A stretch of 64,000 nucleotides of DNA from Hyphomonadaceae bacterium (GTDB taxonomy: Bacteria; Pseudomonadota; Alphaproteobacteria; Caulobacterales; Hyphomonadaceae), in assembly GCA_022760335.1 (NCBI GenBank), contig JALEGE010000024.1, positions 21,497-85,496 on the forward strand, written 5' to 3'. The notes beneath the pieces are model-generated. The model made no database searches and was not told the DNA's origin. It was given only the letters and a program-made list of their open reading frames with translations. Of the stretch, positions 27,730 through 37,537 are shown one piece after another. Each line of letters opens with the position of its first letter. The first letter of the stretch is position 1. The position numbers and the translations under genes were made by a program.

Positions 27730-30291
27730 GTGTTCAACTGGCCTGGAAAATCCAATAGCGACGAGATGTTTCATCCAGCGGCGCTGCACATGCTGGATGT
27801 CGGCGCCTGCGCACTGGAGCTTGGCTTCCCACGCCAGGTTCGGGATCTGGGGGACGAGGTCTGCAATGCGCTCGGCCTTCTCATCGCCGTGCACGACCTT
27901 GGTAAATTCTCGAATGCGTTTCGGTCACAAATACGCGATGGGGCACGACCGCCATCATGGGCGCGCCATTGGGAACTCAGCGATGTGCTTTTTGATGAAC
28001 ATGACGCCCTCTTTGCGGAGGCCTTCAATCAGCACCCCAAAGACTCCGGAACGCTCGGCCGCCGACATCGGAGCGTTCGCAAGCAATTCTACAAAGCCGT
28101 GGCCTGGCACCACGGGCGCGTTTCCAGTGGGGGAGAACACTCCGCCCAGCTGAAGTATATCGGCGAAGATGCGCTTGCCGATTCGAAGGGGTTCCTTGAG
28201 CTGGCCATACCGCTGTTCGGTGGCATGGACTTGTCCAGGCTGGAGCTGGCACAGGCGAAAACGCTGTCCTGGCTTGTGAACGGACTGACCTCACGCGCGG
28301 ACTGGCTCGCCTCAAATACCACTTGGTTTCCCTTTCAGACCGAGCCCATTGCGCTTGATACGTACTGGAACATCGCCCGTGAGCGCGCCCGCATCGCAGC
28401 AAGGGAATCCGGCCTGGCAGGCGCATCGCCATCGGCGTCTCTTAGCGGGAGCACGCTGGTCGGTGGGCACGAACTTCGGCCCATGCAGGCCGCCGTGGAG
28501 GCGGCCGAGTTGCCTGATGGCCCCGTCCTCGCCCTGATTGAGGATGCGACCGGGTCGGGCAAGACGGAGGCGGCGTTGATGCTCGCCCATCGCATGATGC
28601 AGGCGGGCAAAGGAAAGGGGCTGTTCTTCGCCCTGCCGACAACTGCAACGGCCGATAGCATGTTCGCCAGGATGGAAGGTCAGGTCCGATCGCTGTTCGA
28701 TGGCACGCCATCGCTCTCCCTTGCTCATGGCAGGGCCTGGCTGAACGACAGATTTGCAGAACTGAAAGGTGCCCGGGTGAGCGGATCTCCCGAAGCCTCG
28801 TGCGCAGAATGGCTGGCGGCTGACCGCCGCCGGGCGCTTTTCGCCGAAATTGGCGTGGGGACGGTGGACCAGGCTCTTATGGGCGTCCTTCCGACACGTT
28901 TCCAGGCGATGCGACTGGCCGCGCTCTCTGAACGGATCATCATTGTCGATGAAGCTGCCTTTGGTCCTTATATGGCGCGGGAGGCGGAAGCGCTGCTTGA
29001 AGCGCAGGCGGCGTTCGGCGGTTCCGCGATAGTCATGACGGCGACCCTGCCGCTAGCCCTGCGCAAGAGATATGCCGCGAGCTTTGCGCGTGGGGCGGAC
29101 GCGGCCGTTAAGGACCTGGATGATGCGAGTTGGCCAGCGCTCAGCCTCGTATCGAAGCACGGTGTTTCCCAGACATCCGTGACGCCAGTCTCGGCTACGT
29201 GTCGATCGGTCAAGGTTCGACGGCTTGCCGATCGGGAAGCCGCACTGAACTTGCTTGCTGATGCGGCCAGCAAGGGTGCGGCCTGCATCTGGGTGCGAAA
29301 CGCGGTGGACGAGGCGGTCGATGCGACCCTGGCGCTCCGGGCACGGGGTATCGAGGCCGACCTCCTCCATGCCCGCTTCACCCTGTATGACAGGGCCAAG
29401 CGGGAGGCCGATATGCTGCGGCTTTATGGCAAGGACCGCGCGCCACGCCCTGGGCGCGTTCTGGTCGCAACGCAGGTCATCGAAAGCTCGCTTGACCTCG
29501 ATGCCGACGTGATGGTCAGCGATCTGGCCCCCATGGACAGTCTGATCCAGCGCGCAGGCCGGCTTTGGCGGCACATGGACAGACGCCCGGCCGATGAGCG
29601 CGCGACAGCCAAGTCGGTTCTCCACATCCTGTCACCTGATCCTGGCATGGTCACCTCGAACTGGCTTGAACCCACGCTTGGAAAGGGCGCCTGGGTCTAT
29701 CCAGCCGATCACCAGTGGCGCACGGCAAACATGCTGTTTCGTGAAGGCGAGATCAGGACGCCGGAACGGTTGCGATCGCTGATGGAGGCTGTCTATGGAG
29801 AGGAAGGCGACATTGCCGAAATGCCTGAACGGCTTTGCGCGGCCGAACAGGAAGCCGAAGGCCAACGGTTCGGTGAACGCAGCTCTGCGAACATGAACGT
29901 GATCGAGCTGTCGAGAGGCTTTTCCTCGGTCAGCAATGGCCTCAGCCAGGATGACCCGGCTGTCGGCACGCGGCTGGGCGAACCCCAGATACCTCTGAAG
30001 CTTTACCGGATGGAGGCCGATGGGCCGGTCTGGTGGTCGGGCCGCGCAGGCCGCCGCGATGAGGCGCTGAGCACGATCCAGCTTCGCGAGACCCTGTTTA
30101 ACCGGAACATCGGTGCGGACCAGCGCGGTACGATCCCGGGCGAAGCCGAACCGCTGGTGGCAGACTGGAAAGACTGGCAGCGCGCCGAAGGCCTCGTGGC
30201 GCGGGTGAATGACGATGGCAGCCTGGAAGGGCTGCCGGGCTTGCATTATTCGCCGGAGGCTGGTTTAAATGTGGTCCCGTTATCGGGCTGA
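27730..30291 (+). CDS. cas3: Cas3 nuclease-helicase, type I-E
   Basis: 853 residues from a GTG start whose WPGKSN opening matches the family N-terminus. The HD nuclease has HPAALHMLDV, the HD pair in AVHDLGKF and HHG. The SF2 helicase has Walker A IEDATGSGKTEAALM, motif II VDEAAFGPYM, motif III MTATLP, motif V VLVATQVIESSLDLDAD and motif VI QRAGRLWRH. Motif II is DEAA rather than the usual DEVH/DEAH, which is an oddity. Cas3 unwinds and degrades DNA bound by Cascade. Its last codons overlap a degenerate CRISPR repeat (30271-30295), so the mRNA can carry the crRNA-like element. Confidence 0.96.
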   Translation: MFNWPGKSNSDEMFHPAALHMLDVGACALELGFPRQVRDLGDEVCNALGLLIAVHDLGKFSNAFRSQIRDGARPPSWARHWELSDVLFDEHDALFAEAFNQHPKDSGTLGRRHRSVRKQFYKAVAWHHGRVSSGGEHSAQLKYIGEDALADSKGFLELAIPLFGGMDLSRLELAQAKTLSWLVNGLTSRADWLASNTTWFPFQTEPIALDTYWNIARERARIAARESGLAGASPSASLSGSTLVGGHELRPMQAAVEAAELPDGPVLALIEDATGSGKTEAALMLAHRMMQAGKGKGLFFALPTTATADSMFARMEGQVRSLFDGTPSLSLAHGRAWLNDRFAELKGARVSGSPEASCAEWLAADRRRALFAEIGVGTVDQALMGVLPTRFQAMRLAALSERIIIVDEAAFGPYMAREAEALLEAQAAFGGSAIVMTATLPLALRKRYAASFARGADAAVKDLDDASWPALSLVSKHGVSQTSVTPVSATCRSVKVRRLADREAALNLLADAASKGAACIWVRNAVDEAVDATLALRARGIEADLLHARFTLYDRAKREADMLRLYGKDRAPRPGRVLVATQVIESSLDLDADVMVSDLAPMDSLIQRAGRLWRHMDRRPADERATAKSVLHILSPDPGMVTSNWLEPTLGKGAWVYPADHQWRTANMLFREGEIRTPERLRSLMEAVYGEEGDIAEMPERLCAAEQEAEGQRFGERSSANMNVIELSRGFSSVSNGLSQDDPAVGTRLGEPQIPLKLYRMEADGPVWWSGRAGRRDEALSTIQLRETLFNRNIGADQRGTIPGEAEPLVADWKDWQRAEGLVARVNDDGSLEGLPGLHYSPEAGLNVVPLSG

Positions 30292-30353
30292 CCCAGTATG
30301 TCTGGGAGTCGCTTCGACAGTGGCTGTGTAGTCCCCCGCAACGCGGGGCTAAG
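30271..30353 (+). ncRNA. Candidate crRNA-like RNA (CreA/CreR-type): two degenerate repeats bounding a 33-nt pseudo-spacer
   Basis: Pseudo-repeat 1 (30271-30295) has stem CCCG-TTAT-CGGG and ends CTGACCCA, versus the array handle CTGAACCG (6 of 8 identical). Pseudo-repeat 2 (from about 30329) keeps the full array stem CCCCGC / GCGGGG with loop AAC. Between them lies a 33-nt pseudo-spacer starting GTATGTCTGGGAGT, the right length for type I-E. Cas6e cleavage 3' of both stems would give a crRNA with a near-normal 5' handle. The first pseudo-repeat overlaps the cas3 stop codon, so it would be transcribed with cas3. Confidence 0.78.
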
Positions 30354-30386
30354 GTATGTCTGGGAGTTCAAGAGGGTTGACAAAGC
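30351..30386 (+). promoter_or_regulatory. Candidate Cascade target site: AAG PAM plus seed match to the pseudo-spacer
   Basis: AAG (30351-30353), the preferred type I-E PAM, is followed by GTATGTCTGGGAGT (30354-30367), identical to the first 14 nt of the pseudo-spacer. Beyond that the match ends, which is expected to allow Cascade binding without Cas3 destruction. A 33-nt footprint would cover the -35 box at 30377. The PAM falls in the altered 3' handle of pseudo-repeat 2. Confidence 0.75.
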
Positions 30387-30405
30387 CTGACCTCAGGCGT
30401 AAACA
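30377..30405 (+). promoter_or_regulatory. Sigma-70-type promoter
   Basis: A perfect -35 TTGACA (30377-30382) is followed after 17 bp by TAAACA (30400-30405) as -10, placing the start near 30411. It can drive the hairpin leader and the cas8e-cas2 genes. The candidate Cascade site overlaps its -35 box. Confidence 0.7.
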
Positions 30406-30455
30406 AAAAAACCCGGCACCGAGATGAGCTTAGAAATCATACCTCGGCGCCGGGT
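30404..30455 (-). terminator. Hairpin with T-tract on the minus strand
   Basis: The stem ACCCGGCACCGAG / CTCGGCGCCGGGT has one mismatch and a 19-nt loop. On the minus strand it is followed by seven T, so it would terminate antisense transcripts. On the plus strand it is instead the first hairpin of the leader transcribed from the 30377 promoter. Confidence 0.6.
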
Positions 30456-30550
30456 CAACTTGTACTCAAACAAACGGAGGCAGATCCAGTTATGACCTTA
30501 AGCGCCTAGGCTGTTTGATGGGCTGGATATAGTCTAGCCCATCAACAGCC
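30411..30550 (+). ncRNA. Structured leader or candidate CreT-type toxin RNA
   Basis: The transcript from the 30377 promoter would contain hairpin 1 (30411-30455), a strong GGAGG (30476-30480), a five-codon ORF (30492-30509), then hairpin 2 starting at the stop codon. Hairpin 2 is GGCTGTT(T)GATGGGCT paired with AGCCCATCAACAGCC, 15 bp with one bulge. Known CreT RNAs pair a Shine-Dalgarno sequence and a tiny ORF rich in a rare codon with stable hairpins, and they trap a rare tRNA. The TTA codon here would be a candidate. It could instead be only the cas8e leader. Confidence 0.5.
30492..30509 (+). CDS. Five-codon mini-ORF in the cas leader
   Basis: ATG-ACC-TTA-AGC-GCC-TAG (MTLSA) with GGAGG 11 nt upstream. 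Its ATG overlaps, as ATGA, the stop of an upstream 23-codon ORF (30424-30495) that starts in the loop of hairpin 1 and has several rare codons (TTA, ATA, CGG, AGG). TTA is rare in GC-rich genomes. Confidence 0.4.
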   Translation: MTLSA

Positions 30551-30610
30551 GCAAACAAAATTTCGCGCCGCCTCGCGCGGCATTGAATTTATTTTGCAAC
30601 TAACACTCTC

Positions 30611-32194
30611 ATGAACCTCAACCTGATTTCAGACCCGTGGATCCCCGTACGCACACGGCAGGGCAAGCGGGTGATCGCGCCTCATGAAATTGCCGATCCG
30701 GACGTCCTGTTTCCGGACTGGCCGCGGCCGGATTTCAACCTGAACACGCTGGAGCTTCTTATCGGTCTGGTGAGCCTCGCCGTAGCGCCTCAGGAGGAAC
30801 ACGAATGGTACGAGATTGGAGCGGAGATAGACCCTTCGTCGCTGGCGAAGCACCTGGCTCCGCTTACGCCCTTCTTCAACCTGCTGGGCGATGGTCCTTA
30901 TCGCTTCATGCAGGACCTGGACGACATTGAGGGCTCCGCCAACCCCGCTGAAGCCCTGCTGATCGATGCCGCTGGCGAGAATACCAGCAAGAAGAACGCC
31001 GATCTCATGGTGCATCGGGGGCGCCATGAAGGTTTCGACCTGCCGACCGCTGCCATCGCCCTTTATACACTGCAGAACAGTGCCCCCTCCGGCGGCGCAG
31101 GCAATCGCACCAGCCTGCGCGGTGGCGGGCCCCTCACCACGCTGGTTATCCCCAATGACGCCCCAACGCTCTGGGATATTGTCTGGACCAATGTCCCCAT
31201 TGGCACGTCCTGCCAGGACGAGGCGTCCATAAAGGCCGCCCTGCCCTGGTGCCGACCAACGCGCACCTCAGAGAAGGGCACTGGAGAGGTCACCTCCCCC
31301 CCGAACAGTGAGAAGCGAATATCACCTGAAGTCTTCTTCGGCATGCCGCGACGCATTCGGCTGCGCGCGACTGAAGGCCTCGTGACAGGCTGGGCGCAAG
31401 TCCCCTGGGGGACGAACTATTCCCACTTTATCCATCCACTGAGCCCCTATTATGCGAACGAGAAGGGCAAACCGCACGATCCTCCGCTACTCCCGATCCA
31501 CCCCAAGCCCGGAACGCTCAGCTATCGCGACTGGCTCGGCCTCAGCCTCAGGCGCCCTCCCGGTGAAGGCGGCGAGGTCGCACGATGCGTCCAGGAGGCC
31601 GAAGCAAAGCTCGACCGAGACGACGCCCAAAACCGCCTTCTGGTGGCTGGCTGGTCGATGAAAAACATGACGCCCGTGGACTTTCAGTGGAGCGAAATCC
31701 CGCTGCAGCTTGGCATGTCTCCTGATGCGGAAGACACGGCCCGGCAAATGGTGGATGCCGCCAGCCTCGCCGCATCCTTCCTCGTCAAACAGCTCGGTGT
31801 CGCACTGAACCTCGAGGCAGGTGACGCCGCCGCCATCGCGCCAGAGCGCGAGGCGTTCTTCCATGACACCCAAAGCGCGTTCGAGGAGGCGCTGTTGCAT
31901 CTCGCACGCGGCGGCGATGCTGATCAACTGGCTCAGCTGAAGGCGGAATGGTTCCGCACGATCGAACGCGCTGCCCTTCGGCGATTCGATGCTGCGGTTC
32001 TGCCGGGGCTTGCCTTGCGCGACATCTCTCACCCGTCCCAGCGTGCCGATGCGAAGAAAATCCCCCCCGGCTCAGCTGAGGCTGTGGCCCGGGCGCGCGA
32101 AAGCCTGCGCAAACAGCTCTGGAGCAAGAAAATGCTGACCGACACGCTCGGCGTCGCGAAAGAACAAATCACCAAGAGCAAGGAGGTCGCATGA
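30611..32194 (+). CDS. cas8e: Cascade large subunit Cas8e (Cse1/CasA)
   Basis: 527 residues, near the family's usual ~500. The opening NLISDPWIPVRT is the family signature. Cas8e recognises the PAM and recruits Cas3. No good Shine-Dalgarno sequence precedes the ATG, so translation may depend on leader structure. It overlaps cse2 by 4 bp (ATGA). It is the first gene of the Cascade operon, 320 bp after cas3, and follows the regulatory RNA element. Confidence 0.95.
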   Translation: MNLNLISDPWIPVRTRQGKRVIAPHEIADPDVLFPDWPRPDFNLNTLELLIGLVSLAVAPQEEHEWYEIGAEIDPSSLAKHLAPLTPFFNLLGDGPYRFMQDLDDIEGSANPAEALLIDAAGENTSKKNADLMVHRGRHEGFDLPTAAIALYTLQNSAPSGGAGNRTSLRGGGPLTTLVIPNDAPTLWDIVWTNVPIGTSCQDEASIKAALPWCRPTRTSEKGTGEVTSPPNSEKRISPEVFFGMPRRIRLRATEGLVTGWAQVPWGTNYSHFIHPLSPYYANEKGKPHDPPLLPIHPKPGTLSYRDWLGLSLRRPPGEGGEVARCVQEAEAKLDRDDAQNRLLVAGWSMKNMTPVDFQWSEIPLQLGMSPDAEDTARQMVDAASLAASFLVKQLGVALNLEAGDAAAIAPEREAFFHDTQSAFEEALLHLARGGDADQLAQLKAEWFRTIERAALRRFDAAVLPGLALRDISHPSQRADAKKIPPGSAEAVARARESLRKQLWSKKMLTDTLGVAKEQITKSKEVA

Positions 32195-32751
32195 TGGGGG
32201 AGGCGACAAAAATCAACGTCGCGAAGATCGCGTCAGACTGGTGGAAGCAGTGTTGTAGCCTCAAGAACCCGGCTGGTCATGGCGGCGCGCGCCAATTTCG
32301 TGCCGCCTGCAGAAGGCTCCGGTCACCCATGGAAGCCTACAGGCTGGAGCAAACTATTCTCCTGCATCGTGAACTCGCCAAAGCGGCATATTTGCGCGGC
32401 GACGAACCGGACTCCCGCGTGGGGCTGATCGCGGGCCTGCTTGGCCAAGTTGAATGCATTGAAGCCGACGGCCCTGAAAAGAGCTTTGCCGCATTTCTCA
32501 TGGGCAAAGGCGATCCTCCCAAGGTATCGCCCATGCGCTTTCAGAAACTTGTCCGCGCCAATGTAGGCGAGCTGATGACGCCGCTCCGCCGCACCCTCGC
32601 CCAGATCGAGTTCCGGTGCGATCCGGGCCGGCTCGCCAGTGATCTCTTCTTTTGGGGTGACGACGTGAAGGCGCGCTGGTGCCTGCAATATTATGGCGAC
32701 ACCCAGCCGCCCCACCTCTCAAACACCGCTTCCGAGGAGACCCCGGCATGA
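32191..32751 (+). CDS. cse2: Cascade small subunit Cse2 (Cas11e/CasB)
   Basis: 186 residues, all helical, with the family pattern WWKQCCSLKNPAGHGGARQFRAACRR... (quoted in part: GARAQFRA-type motif) and the C-terminal W..DVKARWCLQYY. Two copies form the Cascade belly and hold the displaced DNA strand. The start is 32191 or the adjacent ATG 32194. It overlaps cas8e and cas7e by 4 bp each. Confidence 0.92.
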   Translation: MMGEATKINVAKIASDWWKQCCSLKNPAGHGGARQFRAACRRLRSPMEAYRLEQTILLHRELAKAAYLRGDEPDSRVGLIAGLLGQVECIEADGPEKSFAAFLMGKGDPPKVSPMRFQKLVRANVGELMTPLRRTLAQIEFRCDPGRLASDLFFWGDDVKARWCLQYYGDTQPPHLSNTASEETPA

Positions 32752-33830
32752 GCTTTTTCCAGTTCGACTATCTGACTGTCTACCCGCCCTCCAACCCGAA
32801 CCGCGATGACCAGGGCCGACCGAAAACAGCCTTTTTTGGCGGCGTTCCGCGCCTGCGCCTGTCGAGTCAGTCGATCAAGCGCGCGGTGCGGATGTCGGAT
32901 GTCATGCAGACCGCGCTCACTGGAAACCTGGGGGATCGCACGCGCAGGGCGTCCAATGGCATCCGCAAGGCATTGCTTGAGGAGGGCGTGCCTGAAGACA
33001 AGGCCCGGGAGGCGGCGATCGCTGTTGCGGGCGTGTTCGGCAAGCTCTCGGCAAAGGATGATGAAAAAGGCGCATCGGCGGAGAAGCCTGACGTGTTGAC
33101 CGCCCAGCTCGCTTTCATCTCACCGCAGGAATACGACGCCGCGCTTGACGCTGCCCGGCGCCTGACTGCAGGCGAAGAAGACGCCAAGAAGGACCTCGCC
33201 CAGAAGATCCTCACCACAGCGGATACCGCCGTTGATATCGGGATGTTTGGCCGGATGCTGGCTGACCAGCCAGGCTTCAACCGTGAAGCCGCTGTGCACG
33301 TCTCCCATCCCATTACCACGCACAAAGCCGACGTGGAGGACGATTACTACACCGCTGTCGACGATCTCAACACGCGCGAGCAGACAGGCGCAGGCTTCGT
33401 CGGCGAGGCGGGGTTCGGGTCGGGGGTCTACTATCTGCATGTCACAATCGATGAAGACTTGCTGCTCAAGAATCTCGGCGGTGAGGCTCAACGCGAGCTG
33501 GCAGCGCGCGCCATCGCCGCCGTTGCGGAGGGGTTTGCAACTGCGTCACCATCGGGGAAACGGGCGAGTTTCGCGCACGCGCCCCGTGCCGGCGTCATTC
33601 TGGCCCGCCATGGCAAGCAGCAGCCTATGGACCTGACCGGTGCTTTCCTCAAACCCGTGCAGGGACAAGACCTGCTCGCGGCATCCGAAACGGCCCTCAA
33701 CGAAACGCTGACCCGGATGGAAGGCATCTATGGCCCATCCGCTGATTCGGACTATCGTGTTTCCTTGCCCAAGGAAGAAGGATCACTGGACGGCCTGAAG
33801 CGCTGGATCGCGGAACGGGTTCATGGCTGA
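32748..33830 (+). CDS. cas7e: Cascade backbone subunit Cas7e (Cse4/CasC)
   Basis: The track start (32679) lies within cse2. ATG 32748 overlaps its stop (ATGA) and opens with FDYLTVYPPSNPNRDD, the family N-terminus. 360 residues, with RLRLSSQSIKRAVR and SHPITTHKADVEDDYYTAVDD (quoted in part) as conserved motifs. Six copies bind the crRNA spacer. It overlaps cas5e by 8 bp. Confidence 0.95.
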   Translation: MSFFQFDYLTVYPPSNPNRDDQGRPKTAFFGGVPRLRLSSQSIKRAVRMSDVMQTALTGNLGDRTRRASNGIRKALLEEGVPEDKAREAAIAVAGVFGKLSAKDDEKGASAEKPDVLTAQLAFISPQEYDAALDAARRLTAGEEDAKKDLAQKILTTADTAVDIGMFGRMLADQPGFNREAAVHVSHPITTHKADVEDDYYTAVDDLNTREQTGAGFVGEAGFGSGVYYLHVTIDEDLLLKNLGGEAQRELAARAIAAVAEGFATASPSGKRASFAHAPRAGVILARHGKQQPMDLTGAFLKPVQGQDLLAASETALNETLTRMEGIYGPSADSDYRVSLPKEEGSLDGLKRWIAERVHG

Positions 33831-34572
33831 GACGGTTGCCTTCAGCCTTTATGGTGCGTTCGGCGCTTTCGGGGGACCGGCGGGCTATACGCGGCGCGGA
33901 ACGCAGATGGAACCTTCGCGCTCTGGCCTGCTCGGCATTTGTGCTGCAGCCCTCGGCATTCCGCGAGACGACAAGGACCGTCAGGCCGCCCTTTCAGCTT
34001 GGAGATTCGCTTGTGCCCGCATCGAACCCTTGCGATCCCGCCAGCGTGTCATCCGCGACTATAACACAGCACAGACGGTGCACCGGAAGGTCAGGACTCC
34101 TCGAACCCGGCGGGACGCAATATTGCGAGGCCGCGTGAACGACGCCATCCATACAGAGATCACCCAGCGCGACTACCTTACCGACTGCGCCTTTGCCATA
34201 GCGGCCTGGGGCGGCGATACCGAAGGCCTTGCCGCAGCGTTGAAACGTCCGGTCTTCGCGCCCTTTCTCGGACGCAAATCATGCCCGCTCTCTGCGCCGA
34301 TGGATCCGAAAGTCATCGAAACCGATATGCCCTGGGCCGCTTTCGCGCATCTGCGTTGCCCGCCTTGGTTCGGCGAAGGACGGATCGAGCGGATCACCTG
34401 CGACCCACTTGGTCCAGCCCTGGCTGGCAGCCGCATTATCTCCACCTCCCACGCTTATGACGAGCCGGGCGCGCGCAGCACATGGTCCTTCCACCGGCGC
34501 GCCGTTGAAACCCGAAAGCTGGACTCCGCGATCATCCTTCCACTCGCCACAGTGGATGAGGCGCCAGCATGA
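33823..34572 (+). CDS. cas5e: Cascade subunit Cas5e (CasD)
   Basis: 249 residues. The N-terminus has the family GAFGGPAGYTRRGTQMEPSR (reads as the modified G-x-x-AFGG...R-T-x-PS-S motif) and then GLLGICAAALGI. Cas5e caps the 5' handle of the crRNA. It overlaps cas7e by 8 bp and cas6e by 4 bp. Confidence 0.93.
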   Translation: MAETVAFSLYGAFGAFGGPAGYTRRGTQMEPSRSGLLGICAAALGIPRDDKDRQAALSAWRFACARIEPLRSRQRVIRDYNTAQTVHRKVRTPRTRRDAILRGRVNDAIHTEITQRDYLTDCAFAIAAWGGDTEGLAAALKRPVFAPFLGRKSCPLSAPMDPKVIETDMPWAAFAHLRCPPWFGEGRIERITCDPLGPALAGSRIISTSHAYDEPGARSTWSFHRRAVETRKLDSAIILPLATVDEAPA

Positions 34573-35288
34573 CCCATTATCTTTCCCGCCTGACGCTGTC
34601 GCGAGACCCTTCCATCAAATCGGTCGCTCCGCTCCTCAACCCATCGCCCGGCACCAATCACGGTCACGCGGCTTCCGCCCACCACCGTCTCGTTTGGAGT
34701 GCGTTCAGTGATGGCAGCGATGCGCCAAGGGACTTTCTCTGGCGGGCTGAGGACCGGGGCGCGTTCTATGTGCTGTCGGCCACACCGCCGAAACAAAGCG
34801 CCTTGTTCGAGGCCGCCGAAATCAAGCCTTTCGACCCGGCCCTCTTCCCCGGAGACCGTCTCGATTTCAGGCTGAGGGTTCATGCCACTGTCAACACGCC
34901 AATCCCGGGCGGCAAGCGGGGCAAGCGCCACGATATCGTCATGCAACGGCTGCACGGCGTCCCCAAAGATGAACGAGCCGGGAAACGCATGGACGTCGCA
35001 GAAGCCGCTGCGATCGACTGGCTTGATATGCAAGGTAGCCGGAATGGGTTCTCGCTTTTGCGTCCACGCGATCCAGACATCCGCCTCGTTCAAGACTACC
35101 ACGTTCTCGATATCCCGCGCAAAGCCGTATTCGCCAACAAGCGTGATCACCGCATGCGCGTCGGCGTCCTCGATCTGGAGGGCCGCCTGGAGGTCACCAA
35201 TCCGATGGCGTTCCTCAGCCGCCTTTATGGCGGTTTTGGGCGGGCAAAAGCGTTCGGCAATGGTCTCATGCTGATCAGGCGCGCCTGA
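34569..35288 (+). CDS. cas6e: crRNA-processing endonuclease Cas6e (CasE)
   Basis: 239 residues with the typical opening YLSRLTLSRD, a His in the HHRLVWSAF segment as the likely catalytic residue, and the Gly-rich loop GGFGRAKAFGNGLML near the C-terminus. It cuts 3' of the repeat hairpin, leaving the 8-nt handle CTGAACCG. The same cut on the degenerate repeats at 30271-30353 would release the crRNA-like RNA. Confidence 0.94.
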   Translation: MTHYLSRLTLSRDPSIKSVAPLLNPSPGTNHGHAASAHHRLVWSAFSDGSDAPRDFLWRAEDRGAFYVLSATPPKQSALFEAAEIKPFDPALFPGDRLDFRLRVHATVNTPIPGGKRGKRHDIVMQRLHGVPKDERAGKRMDVAEAAAIDWLDMQGSRNGFSLLRPRDPDIRLVQDYHVLDIPRKAVFANKRDHRMRVGVLDLEGRLEVTNPMAFLSRLYGGFGRAKAFGNGLMLIRRA

Positions 35289-35294
35289 CGCCCG

Positions 35295-36510
<1,216 letters not shown>

Positions 36511-36593: not shown

Positions 36594-37537
36594 GTGTCCC
36601 CCGCACCTGCGGGGCTGAACCGTGAGCCGGGAAGAGGCTGAGGAAATCCTGACCGTGTCCCCCGCACCTGCGGGGCTGAACCGACATATCAGGAAGCCGA
36701 GAAGGTGCGCCAGGAGTGTCCCCCGCACCTGCGGGGCTGAACCGGCCCCGCCCTTGGTGGGCCAGGTGTCTTCCCCGTGTCCCCCGCACCTGCGGGGCTG
36801 AACCGCGAGCGCGCCCAGTTCGGTGGCGCTCAGGCCAGTGTCCCCCGCACCTGCGGGGCTGAACCGGGCGAGGAGTTCGACGACTATGTCGAGGCGACGT
36901 GTCCCCCGCACCTGCGGGGCTGAACCGGTGACCGCCTCACCGGGCCTCGCCCAGCCATGGTGTCCCCCGCACCTGCGGGGCTGAACCGTTGAGAAACGGG
37001 TGACCGGCGTGGCGCCGCGCGTGTCCCCCGCACCTGCGGGGCTGAACCGTCATCGTCTGCCGGAACAGTGTCGGTGAGCAAGTGTCCCCCGCACCTGCGG
37101 GGCTGAACCGGCGACGTCTTCGTCGGCGAGGTTCGCTGCCGCGTGTCCCCCGCACCTGCGGGGCTGAACCGCCAGACCTGTCGCGCGGAAGCGGTGTCAA
37201 TGCGTGTCCCCCGCACCTGCGGGGCTGAACCGGACAGGGATTTGCCGTTCAGCGCCCAGCTTTCGTGTCCCCCGCACCTGCGGGGCTGAACCGGATATTC
37301 CAACGGAATCCGCTTCGCGCGCAGAGTGTCCCCCGCACCTGCGGGGCTGAACCGAGCACAGCCAGCCTCTCGGCTCACCTCCCCTCGTGTCCCCCGCACC
37401 TGCGGGGCTGAACCGCACTACACAGCGGTCATTGACGGCGTGCTATAGTGTCCCCCGCACCTGCGGGGCTGAACCGCGGCCGCAGAACATTGCCAAGATG
37501 TTGCCGGAGTGTCCCCCGCACCTGCGGGGCTGTATTC
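36594..37537 (+). CRISPR. Type I-E CRISPR array, 16 repeats and 15 spacers
   Basis: Repeats of 29 bp start at 36594 and recur at exactly 61-bp steps to 37509, so every spacer is 32 bp. The repeat core is CCCCGCACCTGCGGGG, preceded by GTGTC and followed by the handle CTGAACCG. All repeats look identical except the last, whose final bases read GTATTC. That end is leader-distal. Perfect repeats and cas1-cas2 suggest an active or recently active locus. Confidence 0.98.

Follow-up and report, generated by a model that had tools for sequence, protein, structure and literature searches.

A putative CreTA-like module between cas3 and cas8e of a Hyphomonadaceae type I-E CRISPR-Cas locus, and its counterparts in alphaproteobacteria

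What might a short, degenerate CRISPR be doing between cas3 and cas8e of a type I-E system that also has an array of its own? The question is raised by a Hyphomonadaceae locus in which the window, that is, the whole 64-kb stretch of DNA analyzed here, carries a complete type I-E gene set (cas3, a 319-bp gap, cas8e, cse2, cas7, cas5, cas6e, cas1, cas2 and the array, with 15 intact repeats downstream of the cas genes; Table 1). An earlier note, made from the sequence alone, had described two repeat-like units, one with an array-like handle and one with an intact CCCCGC/GCGGGG stem, around a 33-nt spacer, and this description is confirmed, the spacer being 32–33 nt long. The first unit, psiR1, has a CCCG-TTAT-CGGG stem (30276–30287), weak and absent from the lowest-energy fold of the precursor, and a handle, CTGACCCA, identical at 6 of 8 positions to the array handle CTGAACCG; the handle consensus among relatives is ATG[AG]CCCG. 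Since the cas3 stop codon TGA (30289–30291) falls inside this pseudo-handle, psiR1 overlaps the coding end of cas3. The second unit, psiR2, keeps its CCCCGC-AAC-GCGGGG stem (30334–30348) and decays beyond it into CTAAG; because its loop is one base short, the pseudo-spacer psiS counts 33 nt from the 5′ side and 32 nt from the 3′ side. An ordinary CRISPR array is ruled out, given that neither unit is near-identical to the 29-nt array repeat (ungapped identity 12/29 for psiR1 and 15/29 for psiR2). Degenerate repeats flanking a pseudo-spacer, beside an intact type I cas locus, are instead among the features by which CreTA (CRISPR-regulated toxin-antitoxin, type VIII) modules are recognized.

Table 1. 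Coordinates of the features of the type I-E locus and of the putative regulatory module in the window.
Feature	Position	Strand	Remarks
cas3	27730–30291	+	HD + helicase, 853 aa; its 3′ end doubles as the 5′ part of the guide gene
psiR1, degenerate repeat	30271–30295	+	stem and 5′ handle CTGACCCA (30288–30295)
psiS, pseudo-spacer	30296–30328	+	32–33 nt; first 14 nt identical to target
psiR2, second repeat	30329–30348	+	intact stem; expected 3′ handle of guide RNA
PAM AAG	30351–30353	+	occupies the expected psiR2 handle position; within decayed CTAAG
Target protospacer, 33 bp	30354–30386	+	30354–30367 identical to psiS
Putative creT promoter	30377–30405	+	TTGACA 30377–30382, 17-bp spacer, weak TAAACA 30400–30405
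5′ stem-loop of putative CreT RNA	30411–30455	+	from folding
Shine-Dalgarno CGGAGG	30475–30480	+	−9.5 kcal/mol with anti-SD
Putative creT mini-ORF	30492–30509	+	ATG ACC TTA AGC GCC TAG (MTLSA)
3′ stem-loop	30509–30550	+	overlaps mini-ORF stop codon; −39.8 kcal/mol, z −6.7
Weak terminator-like hairpin ahead of cas8e	30563–30590	+	
cas8e (cse1/casA)	30611–32194	+	
cse2, cas7e, cas5e, cas6e, cas1e, cas2e	32191–36510	+	full Cascade and adaptation genes
CRISPR array	36594–37536	+	29-nt repeat GTGTCCCCCGCACCTGCGGGGCTGAACCG, period 61 nt

The first 14 nt of psiS, GTATGTCTGGGAGT, are found at two places in the 64-kb window, namely at 30296 behind the handle CTGACCCA and at 30354 behind AAG, and have no copy on its other strand. 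The claim that they recur 58 bp downstream, right after AAG, while the remainder of psiS finds no match in the target, proved exact; this is the longest direct repeat of the cas3–cas8e gap, and none of 3000 Markov shuffles reached its length (maximum 13, mean 7.9). AAG is a canonical type I-E PAM. As the note had also read, the 33-bp protospacer that Cascade would cover includes the −35 element TTGACA. Such a partial, PAM-flanked match of psiS in a neighboring putative promoter is again typical of CreTA, and the limited complementarity of a mini-CRISPR guide to a putative promoter is equally a mark of CreR. A standard sigma-70 scan yielded no promoter match because the −10 element is weak, so the promoter call rests on TTGACA and on its conservation in relatives.

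These relatives are distant. A family-wide search found a match in 1 of 105 family genomes, the window's own, which makes close relatives unusable for comparison, and no Cas8e relative exceeds 50% identity, so that the window module lacks a close homologue to be compared with. Searching genome contigs with the single window Cas8e protein gave no match; an alignment query succeeded. Cas8e relatives were gathered from plasmids, species genomes and other genomes, and the cas3–cas8e gap was cut from each of about 100 related type I-E loci and scanned for handle, pseudo-spacer, PAM and target, with shuffled gaps as control. At least 27 loci besides that of the window, almost all of them from alphaproteobacteria, show the same logic, and the arrangement that the earlier note had suggested seeking in related gaps is thus found there, with the pairing kept while the letters change. 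The scan accounts for about 23 modules (23 that scored above shuffled gaps, or level with the best of these, or were found PAM-blind), and five further ones were found later, including the held-out plasmid loci L098, L101 and L104; three of the five were fetched after the rule had been fixed. Gaps shorter than about 130 bp almost never contain the module, and L011, L012 and L036 have pairs of repeats without a detectable target.

Guides match their own targets at 9.3 of 10 seed positions and those of other loci at 2.8. As the loci had been selected for a good own match, the mismatch pattern and the PAM are the stronger evidence. In a PAM-blind, unweighted scan, from which matches inside ordinary array repeats were set aside, a threshold of 12/18 was too loose (15 chance matches expected, 26 observed) and the statistics were accordingly restricted to matches of at least 14/18. 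This recovers 17 modules, with AAG as PAM in 13 and ATG in two; over all 28 modules the PAM is AAG in 21. For the set from this PAM-blind, unweighted scan, 28 of 46 mismatches between psiS and target fall at nt 6, 12 or 18 (p = 2e-11), and for the five later-found loci 10 of 22 do so (p = 0.0015); these are the positions flipped out by Cascade. Nucleotides 6 and 12 are likewise the non-pairing positions of haloarchaeal CreTA (PMC8501985). The sister loci L030 and L071 (one fork, 95*) carry identical letter changes at positions 13, 14 and 16 in psiS and target, and in 17 of 23 loci, where chance would give 0.5, TTGAC lies at +18 to +50 from the point at which the target begins. The parts, their pairing, the conservation of this pairing and the Cascade-type mismatch pattern are thus directly observed. 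Taking together the contrast between own and cross matches, the PAM, the mismatches, the changes shared by L030 and L071 and the placement of TTGAC, Cascade-guided repression of the neighboring promoter appears by far the best reading, with no binding or repression data at hand, and the CreA/CreR logic invoked in the earlier note is supported, having withstood comparisons that might have refuted it.

The distance from the start of psiS to the psiR2 stem is 34–36 nt in 18 loci, 23–24 nt in eight (L063, L071, L065, L053, L055, L084, L010 and L050) and 41 nt in one (L087), and the pseudo-spacers therefore measure about 32, 20 and 38 nt, in steps of 6 nt; none near 26 nt was seen among the loci measured. 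In this regard, engineered spacers of 20–24 nt let the type I-B Cascade repress without interference (PMC10989794), spacers shorter by 6 or 12 are tolerated by the I-E Cascade (Kuznedelov 2016, to the extent that it is cited in PMC7296934), and engineered altered-length Cascades follow 6-nt steps (PMC7296934). By comparison, eight loci, the window not among them, appear to use 20-nt pseudo-spacers naturally.

In most modules psiR1 overlaps the end of cas3, and in nine of them (the window, L013, L030, L049, L062, L083, L098, L101 and L003) psiS starts exactly 4 nt past the cas3 stop, the TGA being part of the handle; on account of this overlap, the guide is probably a product of the cas3 transcript. 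Elsewhere psiS begins 14 or 24–25 nt past the stop, in what look like 10-nt steps. Other layouts were also encountered. A Paracoccus MAG (L065) has a real four-repeat array between cas3 and cas8e, with a first spacer of only 20 nt; because the seed of this spacer has a match beside AAG in front of cas8e (TATTAGGGTGT / TATTATGGTGT), a regulatory guide seems to be built into a normal array there. On plasmid p7 of Azospirillum argentinense (L104) cas3 is divergent and the same logic holds, with a TACTGCTCATT guide and an ATG-flanked target just before casA. Upstream of cas8e in L005 and L008 a repeat-like stem directly abuts TTGACG (GGGGGACTTGACG; GGGGATGTTCCCCTTGACG), perhaps another way of linking repeats to a promoter.

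The earlier note spoke merely of an adjacent promoter as the repressed item; it is most likely an RNA with a CreT-type mini-ORF. The 110 nt upstream of the window mini-ORF fold at −38.8 kcal/mol (z −5.0), and the ORF contains one rare codon, not a tandem pair, namely TTA, the rarest of 61 codons (1.1 per thousand). The spacing from Shine-Dalgarno (SD) to ATG is long, 11 nt, and the mini-ORF of the window, taken by itself, reaches only p = 0.02. CreT is known to need an SD, a start codon, rare codons and a stem-loop (PMC8501985), and all of these, with the mini-ORF, can be recognized in the putatively repressed RNA, as sequence features only. It is because the SD, mini-ORF, rare codon and stem-loops correspond to this published anatomy that the window is read as CreTA. 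A 23-codon ORF within the first hairpin (from about 30424, ATG AGC TTA ...) has no SD and was set aside, and an Rfam search gave a single chance-level NiCo match, far below the cut-off.

The window shares with about 14 relatives a targeted promoter that points toward a structured RNA containing a ribosome-binding site and an ORF of 2–6 codons. In this long form the target lies about 240–350 bp from cas8e, with the 5′ stem-loop, SD and ORF between; the ORF is longer in L053, L026 and L007. Predicted peptides are MTLSA in the window, VLKIP (L013), VHKIP (L049), VQKIP (L055), MQKIPF (L050), MGPL (L071), MGQL (L014), MRAT (L096), MTIRI (L003) and MK (L046), and an ORF ending in AAA-ATA-CC(C/T) is common to VLKIP, VHKIP, VQKIP and MQKIPF. 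About 12 other relatives have a short form, with the target typically 70–190 bp (one 290) from cas8e and no mini-ORF. Compared with shuffles, SD plus mini-ORF gives a Fisher p of 1.3e-7 in the long form and 0.99 in the short one; as the form labels drew partly on ORF presence, it is how far the target lies from cas8e that serves as the independent variable. The mini-ORFs are enriched in rare codons (combined p = 6e-5), with TTA of the window and CTA of L013 both ranking first of 61 and TTA of L071 second, and no rare codon occurs in the mini-ORFs of L014 and L084. Intrinsic terminators ahead of cas8e in L049, L055 and L052 indicate that a stand-alone small RNA would be made there, and the short-form relatives look like CreR autoregulators. 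The cas3–cas8e gap of Bombella mellum (L046) has as its putative CreT a two-codon ORF, ATG AAG TAA, behind AAGGAGG, which we take to resemble the bar minigenes of phage lambda.

The sisters L030 and L071 have homologous guides, with SD and mini-ORF kept in L071 and absent from L030, possibly reflecting a change from CreTA to CreR. Module labels are scattered over the Cas8e tree without a single clade (16 changes for 17 CreT rows, 11 for 12 CreR rows), so a single origin is not claimed, and the close sisters L052/L067 and L055/L076 differ by absence of the module. Both scatter and absence are what one would expect of an accessory addiction module that turns over frequently.

The window being of the long form, CreTA is favored over CreR, and we regard a type I-E CreTA-like addiction module as the likely identity of the locus, in the absence of RNA, binding or toxicity data. 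It is possible, if doubtful, that both functions are combined, a single Cascade-repressed promoter driving creT and reading through to cas8e, such that derepression would give toxin and more Cascade. This case, which is counted as a sub-case of CreTA and CreR and not as a third alternative, would agree with the continuous same-strand order and with the failure to find a good terminator between the putative creT and cas8e in the window, and is weakened by the terminators of several long-gap relatives. Rather unlikely for the window is a CreR-type autoregulator in which guide and Cascade would repress the promoter of the cas8e operon, the mini-ORF being a chance occurrence or a leader peptide. 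The simple form does exist among relatives, a type I-E CreR has been described (PMC13131331) and no strong terminator separates the window promoter from cas8e; the 257 bp between the window target and cas8e, however, contain the SD and mini-ORF as well as two very stable hairpins, and the long-gap relatives have conserved mini-ORFs, some with intrinsic terminators ahead of cas8e. That the first hairpin (30411–30455) terminates a leftward, minus-strand RNA instead of forming the 5′ end of creT seems improbable to us: a T7 run follows it on the minus strand and A-runs precede it in several relatives, but the minus strand showed neither a conserved gene nor a conserved promoter, the plus-strand SD and mini-ORF keep a similar distance from the target, and both roles could coexist. 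The view that a short CRISPR array has decayed, or a promoter segment was duplicated, and that what is left has no function can hardly be upheld in spite of the strong degeneracy of psiR1 and the lack of the module in many sister loci, since guide and target diverge yet keep matching, with PAM and Cascade-specific mismatch pattern, and a neutral duplicate would be expected neither to limit its mismatches to nt 6/12/18 nor to need AAG.

Under the CreTA reading, the 3′ end of the cas3 transcript would carry the minimal degenerate CRISPR psiR1-psiS-psiR2, which Cas6e would cut to give CreA, a crRNA-like guide for the loading of Cascade. By way of the AAG PAM and of pairing over 14 seed bases, Cascade would bind at about 30354–30386 and block the promoter, the rest of the spacer remaining unpaired and Cas3 cleavage thus not ensuing. 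If unblocked, the promoter would yield CreT, with its 5′ stem-loop, SD, five-codon ORF with TTA and 3′ stem-loop, and CreT would jam translation whenever Cascade is lost or inhibited, by sequestration of tRNA-Leu(UAA) or by peptidyl-tRNA drop-off, so that loss of the immune system would harm the cell. Processing, loading, repression, toxicity and the tRNA target are all inferred; for processing by Cas6 and carriage by Cascade the periodicity of the mismatches gives indirect support.

CreTA was described in the haloarchaeal type I-B systems of Haloarcula hispanica and Halobacterium hubeiense (PMC8501985, PMC9458426). Shared with it are the psiR1-psiS-psiR2 order with psiR1 more degenerate, the PAM, the promoter target, a CreT made up of an SD, a start codon, a mini-ORF containing rare codons and a stem-loop, and the logic of its seed (there 10–11 nt, with nt 6 free). 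The haloarchaeal module differs, however, in being archaeal, located between cas6 and cas8, without homology and with a TTC PAM, whereas here we find type I-E, AAG, a guide located at the 3′ end of cas3, rare codons for Leu or Ile and two hairpins around the ORF. The type I-E CreTA of Citrobacter rodentium (PMC12055562) is also cas3–casA intergenic, with a PAM-adjacent partial target at the toxin promoter and a translated ORF, but its CreA is encoded on the opposite strand and its 96-bp ORF is free of rare codons, in contrast to the same strand, cas3 overlap and five-codon ORF seen here. The I-F CreTA of Acinetobacter WCHA45 (PMC10097628) resembles the window in its cas3–csy1 gap, two psiR, mini-ORF RNA toxin and partial PAM-flanked target, and departs from it in type, in a creA divergent from creT, in a CC PAM and in a 33-bp ORF. 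CreR is known in types I-B, I-E and V-A (Liu 2023, via PMC13131331 and PMC12737573). As far as those secondary accounts go, it shares a mini-CRISPR guide whose complementarity to a promoter close to cas genes is limited, I-E included, and differs in repressing cas promoters without a toxin, which the short-gap relatives fit and the window fits less well; the I-E examples of Liu 2023 could overlap the loci found here.

CreTA and I-E CreR are therefore already known as kinds. The earlier note's statement that no alphaproteobacterial I-E case had been described stands insofar as none was found in the open literature, the primary CreR and first CreTA papers excluded, and is to be qualified by the I-E precedents for CreR (PMC13131331) and CreTA (PMC12055562). 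What appears to be new is the alphaproteobacterial I-E family itself, with its putative cas3-3′-end guides, pseudo-spacers quantized at 20/32/38 nt and CreT/CreR interchange. The module family is widespread in alphaproteobacteria, which goes beyond the earlier note. We lean, with limited confidence, toward its constituting an I-E family in which the guide comes from the 3′ end of the cas3 mRNA, the PAM lies in the decayed psiR2, guides of 20, 32 or 38 nt do not cleave, and the payload switches between CreT (2–6 codons) and CreR among sisters.

With our findings, CRISPR addiction and self-regulation, as inferred from sequence, reach into a large set of alphaproteobacterial I-E systems, some of them on plasmids, and the approximately 28 natural guide-target pairs provide a readout of the pairing rules of Cascade. 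They also suggest that cells evolved shortened guides with which a target is bound but not cut, and that a toxin guard can change into a cas autoregulator and back. Control of short toxic minigenes by Cascade would explain both the cost of a broken Cascade and the sensing of anti-CRISPRs.
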